A stretch of 64,000 nt of DNA from Alphaproteobacteria bacterium. GTDB lineage: Bacteria > Pseudomonadota > Alphaproteobacteria > Caulobacterales > Aquidulcibacteraceae. Of the stretch, positions 7,903-16,170 are shown piece by piece. Where the stretch lies: positions 124,001 to 188,000 of the forward strand of contig JAIXQA010000022.1 of the NCBI GenBank assembly GCA_027485915.1, in the 5' to 3' direction. The translations under genes were made by a program, and so were the position numbers. A model generated the notes under the pieces. The model was not told where the DNA came from and searched no databases. It saw only the letters and a program-made list of their open reading frames with translations. The first letter of the stretch is position 1. Each line of letters begins with the position of its first letter.

Positions 7903-8703
7903 TTAACGCGGACGGCGCGTCTTGCAAGCGCGAATGGTCACACCAGCCGGCAATGCAGTCGCTTCATCGCCGCAGGCCTCTTCAAGCTGGCGGGAAGTTA
8001 GACCCGTTGCCGTCGACAAGTCAGCACCGGACAGGTTTGCGCCTGTGAAATCAGCACCTTGGAGCCGCGTGCGGCTGATACGGGCGTCGCGCAGAACGAC
8101 GCCTGTCAGGTCTGCGCGCGATAAGTCCGCACCTTCGATATTGGCGCGTGTCATAATGGCACCGGTGAAGTCCGCATTGACGAAGACCGCGCCCATAACC
8201 ATCGCGCCGGTCATAATGGCACCGCTAAAATCTGGATTCGTGCCGCGCGTGCCGCCGAATTTCGCGCCAGTTAGATTGGCACCGATTAATTCCGCGTTGG
8301 AGAGGTCAGCACCGGCGAAGTCAGAGCCGCTGAAATTAGCACCTGCCGCTTCAATCGAACGCAGGCCCGTGCCAACAAAGCTTGCACCGCGAAAGTTAGA
8401 GCCATTCATTTCGGCACTGCTTAGGTCGCCACGGTCAAAGCGCGTGCCAGCGAAATTGCCTGCGGTCATTTCAGCGCTGCGTAAATGCGAGCCGGAAAAG
8501 TTAGAGCCAGCGAAATTACCCGCTGACATATGGGCATTGTCCATCCGACGATTGGACAAGTCACAGCCCGCGCACAATCCTGAGAAGCGACCAGTAAAGG
8601 TAACCGTCGAAGGCTTGCCGCGTTGATCCCACGTAAAAGCCATGACTGGCTGAGCAATTGGGGCAAGGGCGAAAGCAATTAGGAAAGGCAAAGCTTTTGA
8701 CAT
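7903..8703 (-). CDS. Secreted pentapeptide-repeat protein (larger paralogue)
   Basis: I place the start at ATG 8703 rather than the track start at 8766, because the protein then opens with a Sec signal peptide (MSKALPFLIAFALAPIAQPVMA) and an AAGG lies 8-9 nt upstream. That gives 266 aa. After cleavage there is a CAGC pair, then a long run of A(D/N)(L/F)xx pentapeptides, expected to fold as a right-handed quadrilateral beta-helix. The C-terminal cap has LTSRQLEEACGDEATALPAGVTIRACK. The same CxxC start and ACGD...C end occur in the next gene (8788-9276), so the two are paralogues. Role unknown; predicted periplasmic. Confidence 0.85.
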   Translation of the reverse strand: MSKALPFLIAFALAPIAQPVMAFTWDQRGKPSTVTFTGRFSGLCAGCDLSNRRMDNAHMSAGNFAGSNFSGSHLRSAEMTAGNFAGTRFDRGDLSSAEMNGSNFRGASFVGTGLRSIEAAGANFSGSDFAGADLSNAELIGANLTGAKFGGTRGTNPDFSGAIMTGAMVMGAVFVNADFTGAIMTRANIEGADLSRADLTGVVLRDARISRTRLQGADFTGANLSGADLSTATGLTSRQLEEACGDEATALPAGVTIRACKTRRPR

Positions 8704-8787
8704 GATGCATGCCTTATACTGCTTTAGCGCAAGATTTCCACTTAAATGGTTGTAACAATTCGCCAAGAGGCAGCCGCAAAGCTACCT

Positions 8788-9276
8788 TTATTTGCAAGCG
8801 GGAATGGTCAGGCCACGTGGCAAAGTGGTTTCTGCATCGCCACAAGCCTTGGCCAATTGGGCTTGGGTCAGCCCGCGTGCACCAGCCAGCTCTGCGCCAG
8901 ACAGATTAGCATTGGCCAAATTGGCCCCGGCAAAATTGGCGCTGGAGAAATAGCCGCCAACCAGCACGGCATCATCGAGCCTTGCCCCGGCGAAGTTTGC
9001 CCCGGTGGCGCGAACGCCGTAAAGATTGGCGACCGACAAATCGCTACGACCAAAATTCGTGCCGTCCAATGTGCTCAAAGACATGTCAGCTTGGCGTAAG
9101 CGGGCACCCGCAAAAGTCTTGCGCGACAGGTCTGAATAGCTGAGGTCCGCTTGAAAAAGATTGCATTTAGCGCAGGACTTGCCGTCCTTAACTTGGGCAA
9201 TTTGACCCGCATTTTGCGCGATGGCAGTAGAGCCGCAAGCGGCTGCAACGATGAGGGCAATGGCGAGACGTTTCAT
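8788..9276 (-). CDS. Secreted pentapeptide-repeat protein (smaller paralogue)
   Basis: The start at 9276 (10 codons inside the track ORF) gives a clean signal peptide, MKRLAIALIVAAACGSTAIAQ, with GGAG about 9 nt upstream; length 162 aa. After the signal comes CAKCNLFQADLSYSDLS, then pentapeptides (ADMSLSTLDGTNFGRSDLS...), then LTQAQLAKACGDAETTLPRGLTIPACK. The end is nearly the same as in the neighbour at 7903-8703, with about half the number of repeats. The pair probably arose by tandem duplication followed by repeat expansion or loss. No catalytic domain is visible. Confidence 0.85.
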   Translation of the reverse strand: MKRLAIALIVAAACGSTAIAQNAGQIAQVKDGKSCAKCNLFQADLSYSDLSRKTFAGARLRQADMSLSTLDGTNFGRSDLSVANLYGVRATGANFAGARLDDAVLVGGYFSSANFAGANLANANLSGAELAGARGLTQAQLAKACGDAETTLPRGLTIPACK

Positions 9277-9351
9277 TTTCGGACGCTCCAGCGGTCTAAA
9301 CACAGGTTCGCCCTTCCCCTTGCAGGATTGGTGCCGTCAGTTGAAATGAGG

Positions 9352-12108
9352 CTAGGCGTTGCTTTCGGCTTGCCGCGGGCCTGCCCAGCCGCAAGCGTCA
9401 CACGCAAATCCAAAGGCATCCGCCTTGACTGTGAAATGGCCGCAATCAGGGCAGGGGTCACCTTCATAGCGCGTAGTCGGAGTTACCGACTGCGGTTGAA
9501 CCAAAGTTGCCTGTATCGGCCGCTCTTGGAGTTGGTTGGTGCCACGGCTGGCGCGTTCGGCTGCACTGGGCAAGCGCACGAGATTGTCGGGGAAACTGCC
9601 GCGCGAAAAACCTTTGGAGATAAAGCGGACGGGATCTGTCGCTTCAGGTGCCCCCGCATCGGTCACCGACTCATCAAAACGATCTTCGCCCAATTCAGCT
9701 AAATCATCGCGCCCCAAATACGACACAGCCAATTCACGGAACAAATAATCAAGGATGGAGGTCGCTCGAACAATGGAATCATTGCCCTCAACGTCGCCTG
9801 CTGGCTCAAAGCGCGTGCCGACAAAAGCATCGACATATTCTTCCAAGGGTACGCCATATTGCAACCCAATCGAGGTGGCGATGGCGAAATTATTCATCAA
9901 GGACCGGAAGGCAGCACCTTCTTTATGCATGTCGATGAAGATTTCCCCAATCTCCCCATCGTCAAACTCGCCCGTATGAAGATAGACTTTATGCCCACCT
10001 ACCGAGGCCTTTTGAATATAGCCTTTGCGTCGATCCGGTAGCCGTCGGCGGGCTGCCGGTTGTGGGATTAATCGCTCCACCACGCGCTCTACCACCACCT
10101 CAACCCGTTCGACTTTCACTTCTTCAGCCACATTCTCAAAGCGGCTTAAGTCAAAGCTTGGTGCTTCAAACCCAGGCTCAGACAGCTTGAGCTTAAAACC
10201 CGCAAAGCCTGCCCGTCCTAAGGTCCGCGCGAGTTCACTTGCCAAAGCGCGCACATTTTCAGAGCGCGAAACAGGCAAATGAAGGGTCAGATATTGGCGG
10301 ATTGCCCCATCCTGCGCCGCGGCAAATCGCATGATGGCTTCCCGCCCATTGGGACCGAAAACGTCGAGATTAGGCAAAAGGCCCCATTGCTCTGGCTGAC
10401 CTAAGGCCCATTTTTGGGCAGCAGCGATATCTTGTGACGTAAAACCTAGAGCAGTCAGCACGTCAAAGCCCGGCTGCAGGACCTTGTCCAAACTGCAGCC
10501 GCACCAAAGCGCGGTTTCTTCTGGACCTAATAGCCACGGCGTAATGGCTTGGCGCAAGGAACGCGCACTGATCAAGGCCTCAGCAATGGCCGACAGCCCG
10601 TCCTCATCAATGCCACGGCTCGCCAATGCCTCGTAGGAAACGCCCGGTGCGCCAACTAAAGTCCGGGTTCCGAGCAATTGTCGCGTGGCGTCCCGATCAT
10701 CAAGGCCCAAGGTCTTTATACCGCGCAAGACGCAGGGGCGGACAGCAAAGCCGGTCTCTTCGCCCGAAAGTGCAGTTTCAATCGTGGGGCCAGAGATCGG
10801 CGCAAGACCGGGTGCATCCGCGCCAAGAGCGATCAGAACCAAGCCATGTTCTTGCGGTTTCAGTGCGGTTTCAAAACTGGGAGCCCCCGCTGGATTGGTC
10901 GGCACCGCCAGTTCCGCCAATTGGCTGGCGGTTCTCGCCGTGCCAGTGGCCAGCGCCTGTAAAGCGTTGCGGACGACTTCTTGATCATCTGGGGAGGCGT
11001 AGGATTTCCCACGCGCCATCAAAAGGCCCGCGCCGTCGCAATAGCGCAGGACTGCGGCGCGCTCTTTCGCCCAATTCTGTGCTGCCGTCTTGGTTGGAAA
11101 GGCCGTTGCCCCGCCGAGACAATCCAGCGCAAGTCGCCACGCCGCTGCAACCCGCTCCAACTGGGTGAAATCGACATCTTCATAGAAAGCTGAAAGCGCC
11201 ACCACTGCTGTTGGGCCACACGCAGCAAAAGCGGCGTCATCAAACGCAAAGCCGCAGCCGGTGCGGGCAGCCTTTAACAGCAGATCGCCGTCGAGCATCT
11301 GATCAGATGGCAGCAGCAGCGTGGTCGGCTCAAGAAGTGGGCTATCAAGCACCCCACCATGAGCGGTGGCATCGAATATGCCTTGCTTGGCATCCTCAAT
11401 CGCCTCCAAGATCGCGCCTGCTGGCGCGCCAATACGGAAAGCCGCTGCCACGGCTTGTGCCAAAACAGGATTGTCACGTGGGTCGTCATGGCCCACCCCT
11501 TCCGCCCGGCCGACCGCCTCGCTGACTCGGGCCAGAGCGTCACGCAATTGGATACGCCCCATGGAAAGGGCAGACGAGTCAAACTGGCTTTGACGGCGCT
11601 GATGCACAACAGCATCGGCCTGCGCCCAAGGGACTAATCGGATATGCGACTCGTCCTCCAGCCAAACCGCGGGCAAGCCTGTTTCAATCTCGGTTGATCC
11701 ATCAGCCAAATTCAGCACAAAGCCGCGCGTTGACCTGCCTTGCAGACCAAGTGCGCGCAAATAGCCGGCTTCCAGAACCACTTGCCGGTTTAAGAGGCTA
11801 TTGGCGAGGACCGCTTCAAAGTGATCGCGCGCCATGGCATCTGCCAAAAGGCCTCGCGTCCAAGCAACTCCGCCAATTCGCCCAGCCAGATCGAGGATCG
11901 CATCGGAGATTGAGGACTGGTCTGGTAGGTTAGCCGCTTCACCAAATGCCAAAACACTGTCTAAACTCCAGCTTGCCGGGGCATAGAATGGGCCAGAGTC
12001 GGGGCCGACCTCACGCAGCATATCGGGCTGTGCGGCAAATTGTTCATGACCAAAGAAGGCGGAATCAAAGCTCACGGCGGCCCCAACGCGAATCACTTCT
12101 GTGATCAT
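9352..12108 (-). CDS. Degenerate NrdJ-like (class II ribonucleotide reductase) paralogue with TSCPD domain
   Basis: A 918-aa protein collinear with alphaproteobacterial B12-dependent RNR (NrdJ, about 1200 aa). Residues 213-243 ([31 protein letters not shown]), 319-400 ([10 protein letters not shown]...[10 protein letters not shown]...[16 protein letters not shown]) and 473-563 ([14 protein letters not shown]...LGFTSQDI) match NrdJ blocks as I remember them. Residues 690-800 are an intact TSCPD domain ([37 protein letters not shown]), followed by a CPDCG...CDACG Cys tail at 886-907. The catalytic parts are damaged: the NPCSE active-site block reads TGCGF (283-287), PTGTIG reads ALGADAPG, and SGQNSNN is absent. 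Catalysis is therefore unlikely; a structural or regulatory role is inference. It sits alone, divergent from the NDUFA12 gene. Confidence 0.8.
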
Positions 12109-12289
12109 CCGCCTGAAGTCGCAAGCCGCCTAGTCCTGACCGCGGAAAATCTGCATCTCACCCGACAGTTTTCTGCGGAAGAATAGGCGCGCCCGCCCCG
12201 ATTGGTGGCTTCGCCCTGTTCTGTCATGCCGCATCGACTTGATGCTTCTGACGGCACGGGGCATAATGCGCATTGAAAAGGAAAATCCC

Positions 12290-12679
12290 GTGCTCACAAA
12301 AATCTTTACGTGGTGGAATGGTGCAACGATTGGCGCACTATTTGATATCGCAAAGCGTGCAACCTTGGTGGGCGAGGATGACCAAGGCAATCGCTATTTT
12401 GAAGAGCGTAAGGCAACCCTCGAAGGCCGCAAGCGTCGCTATGTGCTTTATAAGGGCTATGCTGAGCCATCGCGTGTACCCGCCGATTGGCATGGCTGGT
12501 TGCACCATACGTTTGAGCAGCCGCCAACAATTGAGCCATTTGCGCTGAAGGCGTGGGAAAAGCCGCATTTGCCCAATCTGACCGGAACCGTTTTTGCTTA
12601 TCGTCCCAAAGGTAGCTTAGCGGCTGCCGGCGAGCGCGCAAAAGCTTCAAGTGACTATGAGTCTTGGTCGCCTGAATAA
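12290..12679 (+). CDS. NDUFA12-family complex I accessory protein
   Basis: I use the GTG at 12290, which gives MLTKIFTWWNGATIGALFDIAKRATLVGEDDQGNRYFEER. It follows AAAAGGA at good spacing; the track ATG at 12239 adds 17 residues that do not fit the family. The 129-aa protein carries the NDUFA12 core: GNRYFEERKATLEGRKRRYVLYKG...PSRVPADWHGWLHHTFEQPP. It is an accessory subunit of respiratory NADH:ubiquinone oxidoreductase, typical of alphaproteobacteria and mitochondria. The nuo genes are not in this window. The stop overlaps the next start by 1 nt. Confidence 0.93.
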   Translation: MLTKIFTWWNGATIGALFDIAKRATLVGEDDQGNRYFEERKATLEGRKRRYVLYKGYAEPSRVPADWHGWLHHTFEQPPTIEPFALKAWEKPHLPNLTGTVFAYRPKGSLAAAGERAKASSDYESWSPE

Positions 12680-13740
12680 TGAAACGGGCAATTGGCACGG
12701 CCATGTTCGATCTCAAGAAAATTAGCTGGCTGGCGCTGGGCTCGGTTTGTATTGCGCTGGGCAGTGGTACTGTTATTGCTCAAACCGCGAATCCTGAAGC
12801 CAGTGGAACCGGCGTGCGGCCGAATACTGGTGCACCCGGCGACCCTGCAAAGGCCGCGAAAGCTGCAAGCCCGGCACCACCGGCCTCAACCGGTGGGGGT
12901 ATCGATCCCGAACTTGGCCCGATTTCAGAGCCCGAGGAGGGCGATGTTGAGCCAGCTTTTCGGCAAAATGGTACTGGGACTTGGATGACTCCCGAAGAAG
13001 AGATGCGGGCGCGCATCCGGCGTGAGGCCTTAAGTCAAGCAGAAGCCGAACAACAGGCTTTAGCCGCCAGCGGATTCGTCATGCCGCGATTGGTTGGGCC
13101 TAATATCCCGCTGGTGCCGCTTGAACTCTTGTTTCCGCCTGAAGCGCTCGAAACCGGGCCAAAACCCGTACGCGAGATCCGTGGAACAGGCGTCATGCTC
13201 GCGGCGCTCGACCGTGAAAGGGGCACCAATGTCCGCGTGCGCGTGCCCGTTGGCAGTCAAGTCACTTATGGATCGCTGCGCCTCAAGCTTTCGGCTTGCT
13301 ATGCCTCCAATCCTGAGGATGCGATGGAGTCTTGGGCCTATGTCGAAGTGACGGATATGGGACGACAAAATCTCAATCAATTGGCCGTTTTGCCTCAGCG
13401 TGACCGGCGCGGCATGAAAGAAGCCAATAAGGAGCGCGTCATTCGCAAGGGGTGGATCATTGCGTCGAGCCCAGCCGTGACCCCGATCGATCATCCGACC
13501 TATGACATGTGGTTGATTAGCTGCGAGGGGGCAGTTGCGCCGCCAAGTGCTGTTCAATCGTCTTCAAACAAAGCGCGCCCACGCTCTGAAGCAAAGGCTG
13601 GCGCGGCAGGACCCGATGCAGCGGCAGGGGGTCCACTTGCCTCTGATGCTGATCCTGGTGAGTCAGAGCCTCGGACGGGTCCTTCGCCGGCAACTCCGGC
13701 TCCTGCAGCGCCGGCACCGGGAAAACTGAAGGGCACTTAA
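12679..13740 (+). CDS. DUF2155-domain secreted protein
   Basis: A 353-aa exported protein. The signal peptide is near [27 protein letters not shown]; the start may be ATG 12679 or 12703. Residues about 30-80 are Pro/Ala-rich. The DUF2155 domain occupies roughly 170-285, with [58 protein letters not shown]. The tail is low-complexity ([14 protein letters not shown]...). DUF2155 has no established function but is regularly found beside aat in alphaproteobacteria, as here. The last 224 nt overlap aat on the opposite strand. Confidence 0.85.
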
Positions 13741-14311
13741 TCGCCTCAGCCAAGAGCATGTGATAGGTCTTGCGATTGACCTCAAGGGTGCCAAACTGCG
13801 TCAGGTGCTCGGTGATGAATTGGGTGTCAAGAAGGCGAAATCCCCCTGCAATGAGATGCGCAACCAGATGAACCAGGGCAATTTTGCTGGCGTCCCTTGC
13901 CCTTGAAAACATGCTTTCGCCAAAGAAGGCTGCGCCGAGGCGAACCCCATAAAGCCCACCGATAAGTTGGCCATCCTGCCAGGTCTCAACGCTAAAACCA
14001 TGACCACGCCGATGCAGCCCATCATAAAGTTCTAAGATGGGCTGATTAATCCACGTCTCAATCCGATCACCAACAGGCGCCGCGCAGCTTTCCACGACGT
14101 CGCGAAAGGCTCGGTTGATTGTGACACGGTAAGGTGTGGTGCGAACCGTGCGTTTTAGGCGGCGCGGAATATGAACTTGGTCCAGCGGCAGGATGCCACG
14201 CTGGTCGGGATCAACCAGAAACAGGCGAGGATCGTCCCGCCCATCCGCCATCGGGAAGGTCCCGCGCGCATAGCACCCTAAGAGTTCGTCCGGGCCAAAG
14301 CCCTTGCTCAT
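13517..14311 (-). CDS. aat: Leucyl/phenylalanyl-tRNA-protein transferase
   Basis: Adds Leu or Phe from aminoacyl-tRNA to proteins with N-terminal Arg/Lys, making them N-degron substrates for ClpS-ClpAP; both clpS and clpA are at 45.5-48.2 kb. Family motifs: [63 protein letters not shown], and [13 protein letters not shown]. The core ends near residue 195. About 70 further residues ([16 protein letters not shown]...) are encoded antisense to the end of the DUF2155 gene and look like non-conserved read-through. The start overlaps the accC stop by 4 nt. Confidence 0.93.
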
Positions 14312-15675
14312 GCACGCGGTTCCTCAGCTTGTTCGGCTTGTTCGGCCAACCACTTTTCCAGCCAGTGGATATTGTAGTCGCCATCAATGATGTCGCGTTC
14401 TTGAACCAAGCGCAGGAAGAGCGGGATGGTGGTCTTGACGCCACCCACGACCATTTCAGCCAAAGAACGGCGCAGCCGCATCAGGCATTCATTGCGGTTG
14501 CGACCATGCACGATCAGTTTGCCGATCAAGCTGTCGTAATAGGGTGGGATTTTATAGCCTGTATAAATGGCCGAATCCAAACGTACCCCGAGGCCACCCG
14601 GCGCATGGAAGTCCGTAATGGTTCCCGGCGATGGCGCAAAGGTAACAGGGTCTTCCGCATTGACCCGGCACTCAATCGCCACACCTTCAAAAACCACATC
14701 TTCTTGGGTGAAAGAAAGCGGCATTCCCGCAGCGATGCGGATTTGTTCGCGTACCAAATCGACGCCGGTGATCATCTCGGTGACCGGATGCTCTACCTGC
14801 AGTCGGGTATTCATCTCGATGAAATAGAAGCGGCCTTCTTCATACAGAAATTCAATGGTACCGACGCCCAAATAGCCCAGCGACTTGATCGCCTTGACCA
14901 CGATGTCACCAATTTCGGCGCGCTCTTCCGCGTTTAGAGCGGGCGAGGGGGCTTCTTCCCAGACCTTCTGGTGCCGCCGCTGGAGGGAGCAATCGCGCTC
15001 GCCCAAATGGACCACATTGCCAAACTCGTCTGCAATGACTTGGATCTCAATATGGCGCGGCTTGCCGAGATATTTCTCAAGATACACCGTATCATCGCCA
15101 AAGGCGTTTTTCGCTTCCGTACGGGCCATGGACAGCGCCACCGACAGCTCATCCTTGGAATGGGCCACCTTCATACCGCGTCCCCCACCCCCTGCGGAGG
15201 CCTTTACCAGCACGGGATAGCCAATGTCTTCGGCAACCGCCAGAGCGGTTTCATCATCTGAAATGCCGCCATCAGAGCCCGGAACCACGGGGATACCTGC
15301 GGCTTTAACAGCAGCTTTAGCCGCAATCTTATCGCCCATCATGCGGATATGTTCGGCTCGCGGGCCGATAAAGACCAAGCCATGCGCATCAATGATCTCG
15401 GCAAAGCGGGCATTTTCCGACAGGAAGCCATAGCCAGGATGAATGGCCTGTGCACCGGTAATTTCGCAGGCGGCGATCAAGGCTGGGATATTCAAATAGG
15501 ATTTTGCGGCGGCAGGCGGGCCCAAGCACACACTTTCATCGGCCAAGCGCACATGCATGGCGTCAGCATCTGCAGTTGAGTGCACCGCAACGGTGGTGAT
15601 CCCCATTTCCTTACACGCGCGATGAATGCGCAGGGCAATCTCGCCGCGGTTGGCGATCAGAACTTTATCAAACAC
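14308..15675 (-). CDS. accC: Acetyl-CoA carboxylase, biotin carboxylase subunit
   Basis: ATP-dependent carboxylation of the biotin carried by AccB, the first half of malonyl-CoA synthesis. The 455-aa protein begins [25 protein letters not shown]. It has the ATP-grasp glycine loop [46 protein letters not shown] and the catalytic segment [24 protein letters not shown]. accB ends 15 nt upstream, and aat overlaps the stop by 4 nt. The malonyl-CoA made here feeds the fab cluster at the left of the window. Confidence 0.97.
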
Positions 15676-15690: not shown

Positions 15691-16170
15691 CTATTCGATC
15701 ACGCAGAGCGCTTCGCCATATTCAACCGGCTGTGCGTCATGGACGAGAATGGCCGTGACGGTCCCTGAACGTGGCGATGGCACAGGGTTCATGGTCTTCA
15801 TCGCTTCGATGATGAAGAGTTGCTGGCCTTCCTTCACCGTGTCGCCCACTTTGATAAAGGCCGCAGCGCCGGGTTCAGGCTGGGTATAGACGGTGCCAAC
15901 CATCGGTGAGGCGACAGCACCTGGGTGCTTGGCGGGATCTGCTGCAGGTGCTGGAGCAGGCGGGGCGGAAACAGCGGCCGCTGGCGTTGCGGCTGCTGGT
16001 GCTGCCACTACTGGGACTTGGGCATGAACCATTTGGGGCGCGACATTTGCTTGGCGCGCCACACGCACGCGAACCCCTTCGTTTTCTACTTCAATCTCGC
16101 TCAGGTCTGTGTCGCGCAGGATACGCGCAAGATCCTTGACCAATTTTGTGTCGAATCCTGATTGGCTCAT
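15691..16170 (-). CDS. accB: Biotin carboxyl carrier protein of acetyl-CoA carboxylase
   Basis: A 159-aa carrier. The N-terminal helical part (KLVKDLARILRDTDLSEIEVENEGVRVRVAR) is followed by an Ala/Pro-rich flexible linker (about residues 52-84) and a biotinyl domain. The biotin-acceptor lysine is Lys125 in IIEAMKTMNPVPS. The domain carries the usual SPMVGTVYTQPEPG and GDTVKEGQQLFIIEAMK turns. It lies between aroQ and accC, the common order in alphaproteobacteria. Confidence 0.97.
   Translation of the reverse strand: MSQSGFDTKLVKDLARILRDTDLSEIEVENEGVRVRVARQANVAPQMVHAQVPVVAAPAAATPAAAVSAPPAPAPAADPAKHPGAVASPMVGTVYTQPEPGAAAFIKVGDTVKEGQQLFIIEAMKTMNPVPSPRSGTVTAILVHDAQPVEYGEALCVIE

Follow-up and report, generated by a model that had tools for sequence, protein, structure and literature searches.

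Relation to Known Class II Ribonucleotide Reductases

The class II, or B12-dependent, ribonucleotide reductase (RNR) of Alphaproteobacteria is a long NrdJ protein (NF005736/PRK07562, ~1220 aa). In the NrdJ of S. nassauensis, two of the six cysteines of the C-terminal tail have been proposed as a redox pair, and turnover requires all six (PMC5704485). The TSCPD region of these enzymes was called IscU-like in a 2022 survey, which states that no role for it has been reported (PMC9669993). In split class II RNRs, such as that of Pseudomonas aeruginosa, a subunit named NrdJb works with NrdJa. A Caulobacter study presents CCNA_01966 as the NrdJ of the nucleotide-reduction pathway (PMC6538847). Here we analyzed a 64,000-nucleotide stretch of DNA from a member of the Caulobacterales (assembly GCA_027485915.1, contig JAIXQA010000022.1, positions 124,001 to 188,000; hereafter the window), which carries at 9352..12108 a gene for a 918-aa, putatively catalytically dead relative of class II RNR. 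We refer to it as the pseudo-NrdJ gene and to proteins of this kind as degenerates; features of the gene lie on the reverse strand. We consider it likely that pseudo-NrdJ is an ancestral long alphaproteobacterial NrdJ that decayed in place into a pseudoenzyme and was retained for its IscU-like module. No description of a catalytically dead NrdJ or of a role of TSCPD in RNR was found in the literature library searched.

The window protein resembles alphaproteobacterial NrdJ in its locus, domain order, zinc ribbon position and IscU-like domain. In contrast to NrdJ, it lacks the finger-loop cysteine, the PTG, SGQN and effector-site motifs and the redox cysteine pair, and it is ~300 residues shorter. 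Against the NCBIfam model NF005736, it scored 323 bits (E = 2.9e-96), which is below the equivalog cut-off of 1737; an intact relative scored 1985 bits. Pfam TSCPD (PF12637) was matched at 43.2 bits (5e-11), above the gathering score of 22.8, and the RNR barrel (PF02867) fell just under the Pfam cut-off. The best matches in both phmmer and Foldseek searches were the R. sphaeroides (Rhodobacter) NrdJ structures 7b9p and 7b9q, with a Foldseek E-value of 8e-15 for 7b9p. A preliminary description of the gene had read the protein as collinear with alphaproteobacterial NrdJ and had proposed profile searches and structure prediction as a check, and these results agree with that reading. The full-length AlphaFold2 (AF2) model was of moderate confidence (pLDDT 69.8) and found NrdJ as its best Foldseek match at a TM score of 0.38, which speaks for homology and not for a preserved barrel.

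Genes for NDUFA12, DUF2155, aat, accC, accB and aroQ are common to the loci of degenerates and to those of intact NrdJ in other alphaproteobacteria, a shared neighborhood that points to an ancestral long NrdJ having decayed in situ. Collinear homology and the ancestral neighborhood together place the gene in the NrdJ lineage, a statement of homology and not of function. As judged from its sequence, it belongs to that lineage but lacks the features of a functional NrdJ that were tested.

Loss of Catalytic and Redox Residues

A multiple alignment of 44 degenerates and 13 intact NrdJ proteins was used to compare catalytic motifs. The finger loop, which holds the radical cysteine with its Asn and Glu (NPCSE), was deleted or unrecognizable in the 44 degenerates, and the column of the Asn was a gap in all of them; the three residues were present in 13/13 intact proteins. 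The PTGTIG, SGQNxNN and GGTTRR motifs and the barrel cysteines (DCATPCG) were mostly or wholly gone from the degenerates. The loss of the Asn and Glu of NPCSE, of PTGTIG and of the SGQNSNN block had been noted before and was confirmed. The motif TGCGF (residues 283-287; 11248..11262), on the other hand, had been taken for a radical site with its cysteine kept. This did not hold, as the radical loop is deleted and Cys 285 lies outside the radical-cysteine column, so that the window protein does not keep the radical cysteine.

Across the N-terminal region and degenerate barrel (residues 1-440; 10789..12108), where the finger loop, PTG, SGQN and GGTTRR are gone, degenerates and intact NrdJ share a mean identity of 20%, compared to 69% among the NrdJ proteins themselves. 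The following helical segment (residues 441-575; 10384..10788) is better preserved than the rest of the barrel region, with a mean identity of 29%; it matches residues 700-827 of R. sphaeroides NrdJ (7b9q) and was modeled by AF2 with a pLDDT of ~90. Within the genus of the window genome, the dN/dS of the barrel was 0.06-0.16. No sign was seen of B12 or nucleotide sensing, which had been suggested as a role, as the active-site and effector motifs in the alignment are gone.

The C-terminal zinc ribbon (residues 886-906; 9391..9453) retains its zinc cysteines at 886, 889, 903 and 906 and has lost the redox cysteine pair. The tails of 59 intact NrdJ proteins had six cysteines, the redox pair included; all degenerates whose tails could be read kept the four zinc ligands and had lost the other two. 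Two proteins on truncated contigs (L030 and L079) had tails of the intact type and were not classed as degenerates. The CPDCG...CDACG tail had been described as intact, which is correct for the four zinc cysteines and incorrect for the redox pair. Without this pair, a thiol-shuttle role is unlikely, and the thiol handling proposed earlier was rejected on these grounds. To the extent that residues predict activity, the degenerates have lost catalysis along with thiol shuttling, and the zinc ribbon is presumably now structural.

Conservation of the IscU-like Domain

The TSCPD/IscU-like domain (residues 684-805; 9694..10059) was close to that of active enzymes, with a mean identity of 79% between degenerates and intact NrdJ and 82% among intact NrdJ. 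Residues 690-800 had been called almost canonical, and this is borne out. Within the genus, the domain was on average 98% identical despite far-diverged synonymous sites, which indicates that the constraint acts on the protein and not on the DNA. Its dN/dS was 0.002-0.02 for the computable pairs, in comparison to the barrel values given above, a per-domain check that had been suggested earlier. The idea that the C-terminal half is under selection was therefore right in that the selection is real, but it is focused on the ~120 residues of this domain and not on the half as a whole. Selection for a non-catalytic role, as first proposed, is supported by these ratios, by retention across the order and by reduced forms in other lineages. 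The gene is also not a pseudogene by frame, as had been stated, since the frame of 918 aa is open and purifying selection extends along its whole length.

The domain contains no cysteine and so could not hold an IscU-type cluster through cysteine ligands; in this it is unlike the IscU/SufU iron-sulfur scaffolds, whose fold has been proposed for the TSCPD region (PMC9669993). AF2 modeled the domain with reasonable confidence (pLDDT 84). IscU/SufU structures were prominent and recurrent in the Foldseek list obtained with this model, but all matches were weak (E > 0.1), and a profile search of the domain against Protein Data Bank sequences returned nothing significant.

Distribution and Companion Reductases

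A match to the C-terminal part of the protein was found in 285 of 298 Caulobacterales genomes, and among the matches listed most were open frames of 750-1100 aa, the size of degenerates. Intact NrdJ (~1180-1315 aa) was found in family f5 and in some genera of family f4. Seven genomes of genus g23 all encoded a relative of a Caulobacter degenerate protein in frames of degenerate size. In genus g24, eight genomes had no match, and a relative (G244) keeps an intact NrdJ of 1204 aa. In a quick C-terminal tree that included the tail columns, the Caulobacterales degenerates lay on one side of a branch.

The preliminary description had advised looking for an active RNR elsewhere in the genome. The window genome encodes NrdA with an SNLCSE site and no other RNR alpha protein besides pseudo-NrdJ. 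An RNR alpha barrel of NrdA/NrdJ type was present in 61/61 relatives checked, and NrdB was present in 60 of these. Some Caulobacterales (e.g., L164) have an additional barrel protein of ~740-830 aa besides NrdAB and pseudo-NrdJ, apparently without the alphaproteobacterial IscU-like domain.

Outside the Caulobacterales, a class-wide sample contained proteins of intact size nearly everywhere, with five clear exceptions. The shortest was a 278-aa form in a 1.2-Mb genome (G373; L158:6391-7224, forward strand), essentially the IscU-like domain alone at the ancestral nrdJ locus. Genome G308 had a 301-aa form with four zinc cysteines, two genomes of family f22 (G319 and G417) had forms of 530 and 565 aa, and G374 had one of 667 aa. 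All five reduced forms adjoin NDUFA12, and all five genomes encode a barrel protein of NrdA size. The position of these genes in situ and the interspersion of intact relatives among the host lineages suggest independent decays, and 4-5 state changes were required on the domain tree.

Family f22 had a match in 57 of 60 genomes, nearly all of them short open frames. Its reduced relatives (L174-L203, L160 and L161) were ~500-600 aa, and those read had no zinc ribbon and ended in a lineage-specific tail, LLPLDLP...LRLV. One genome of this family (G494) carried both an intact NrdJ of 1212 aa and a reduced copy of 537 aa. The 667-aa degenerate at L162:5209-7209 (reverse strand) had a partly recognizable barrel and a very divergent TSCPD, which perhaps reflects a separate decay.

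Origin and Possible Role of Pseudo-NrdJ

If pseudo-NrdJ is a decayed NrdJ kept for its IscU-like module, class I NrdAB would have taken over the synthesis of deoxynucleoside triphosphates (dNTPs), and B12 chemistry, the binding of substrates and effectors, and the turnover of thiols would then no longer have been under selection. The barrel would have become a weakly constrained yet maintained carrier. Selection would keep the TSCPD/IscU-like domain, helped in Caulobacterales by the probably structural zinc ribbon. We infer that, even in active NrdJ, the domain had a task independent of RNR, and that it probably acts as a cysteine-free binding module that docks a widely conserved alphaproteobacterial partner, either protein or nucleic acid, and so serves as a scaffold or regulator and not as a catalyst.

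We lean slightly, and with less assurance than for the decay itself, toward a wider proposal. Here, class II RNRs would carry an IscU-like domain with a housekeeping job apart from nucleotide reduction, and NrdJ would have been whittled down to this module independently several times (to as little as 278 aa) where a class I RNR replaced it. The proteins annotated as B12-dependent RNRs in Caulobacterales, CCNA_01966 probably among them, would then form a widespread and unrecognized family with a new role. CCNA_01966 of Caulobacter crescentus is probably the same pseudoenzyme, and the label "vitamin B12-dependent ribonucleotide reductase" is probably wrong functionally across much of the order. 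The 2022 survey states that no role has been reported for this domain in class II RNRs (PMC9669993). Natural lineages that dropped the reductase but froze the domain separate the two functions, so that the question of its role can be tested in a model organism.

The pseudo-NrdJ gene also seems, from its upstream sequence, to have left the dNTP regulon. NrdR-box-like sites (at most two mismatches to the consensus) were found upstream of 13 of 55 intact nrdJ genes (shuffled expectation 0.4) and of 0/34 degenerates (Fisher p = 0.0014). This comparison is uncorrected for base composition (GC 0.51 vs. 0.59) and for the relatedness of the sequences, both of which affect it. The nrdA gene of the window genome has one such site.

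Several observations, this dependence on composition and relatedness among them, weigh against retention for the IscU-like module and against its repeated isolation. The gene is absent from most sampled g24 genomes and from three of g16, so the domain is not universal, and these absences show that its function can be dispensed with. Approximately unbiased (AU) tests, run on only ~126 columns, did not reject a tree with every reduced form in a single clade (p = 0.063); for Caulobacterales plus f22 as one clade, p = 0.29 was obtained. The shared IscU fold is weakly supported by the Foldseek matches of the domain model and otherwise depends on the published survey (PMC9669993). Finally, the binding role of the module is a proposed one.

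Alternative Explanations

The alternative that survives best, although unlikely, is that pseudo-NrdJ regulates the active class I RNR as a pseudo-subunit, its dead barrel or domain binding NrdA/NrdB and tuning activity; interaction with an active RNR had also been suggested in the preliminary description. This alternative would fit the presence of pseudo-NrdJ alongside NrdAB in nearly all of the tested relatives, and dead paralogues act as activators in other enzyme families. One example is the trypanosome prozyme, a conserved enzyme copy without catalytic residues (PMC5201418). Pseudo-NrdJ differs from it in two ways: the window genome encodes no active same-class orthologue, and what is conserved is an accessory domain. 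Moreover, intact NrdJ, itself the RNR, has the IscU-like domain in an equally conserved state, so that the domain was not shaped for NrdA. NrdA/NrdB would most naturally be contacted through the barrel, which is the fast-evolving part and which the 278- and 301-aa forms do not have. Pseudo-NrdJ genes and nrdA also share no NrdR-box-like site.

Slightly less probable is a role in complex I, in which the IscU-like module would aid assembly or signaling. This would explain the pairing with the NDUFA12-family gene (12242..12679, forward strand), the divergent neighbor of the pseudo-NrdJ gene. Of 93 genomes sampled across the class, 69 had the two head-to-head and within 7 kb of each other, NDUFA12 also lies beside the five reduced forms, and the fold has been described as IscU-like (PMC9669993). 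However, the domain is cysteine-free, and aat and accBC belong to the same neighborhood, so that common descent of the locus may be explanation enough. In a co-loss test, 12 of 13 Caulobacterales genomes without the pseudo-NrdJ gene still had NDUFA12; NDUFA12 does not depend on this gene, and its role as an obligate partner was not supported.

We regard as quite improbable an accessory subunit that acts in trans with a separate short class II NrdJ, comparable to NrdJb of split class II RNRs. Several genomes with a degenerate gene do have the separate barrel protein of ~740-830 aa. In the window genome and many relatives, however, NrdA is the sole RNR alpha besides pseudo-NrdJ, and an NrdJb-like subunit was rejected there for want of an NrdJa catalytic partner. 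Unlike NrdJb, the window protein retains a barrel remnant, and the redox pair needed for turnover in S. nassauensis (PMC5704485) is lost from degenerate tails. A non-functional relic, i.e., a recently released nrdJ whose frame is open by chance, is scarcely credible and was rejected: all catalytic motifs are lost and the gene is missing in some lineages, but purifying selection on the open frame, the near-identity of the domain within the genus, order-wide retention and persistence in a 1.2-Mb genome contradict it.

Neighboring Genes

The pseudo-NrdJ and NDUFA12 genes are arranged head-to-head on either side of a short divergent region (12108-12242), and much of the class has kept this pairing. 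The DUF2155 gene (12679..13740, forward strand), part of the conserved ancestral nrdJ locus, follows NDUFA12. On the reverse strand are the conserved neighbors aat, for leucyl/phenylalanyl-tRNA protein transferase (13517..14311), accC, for biotin carboxylase (14308..15675), and accB, for biotin carboxyl carrier protein (15691..16170). Downstream of the pseudo-NrdJ gene, two pentapeptide-repeat genes were found on the reverse strand (8788..9303 and 7903..8766), the first of which is conserved next to nrdJ in Caulobacterales, whether nrdJ is intact or degenerate.
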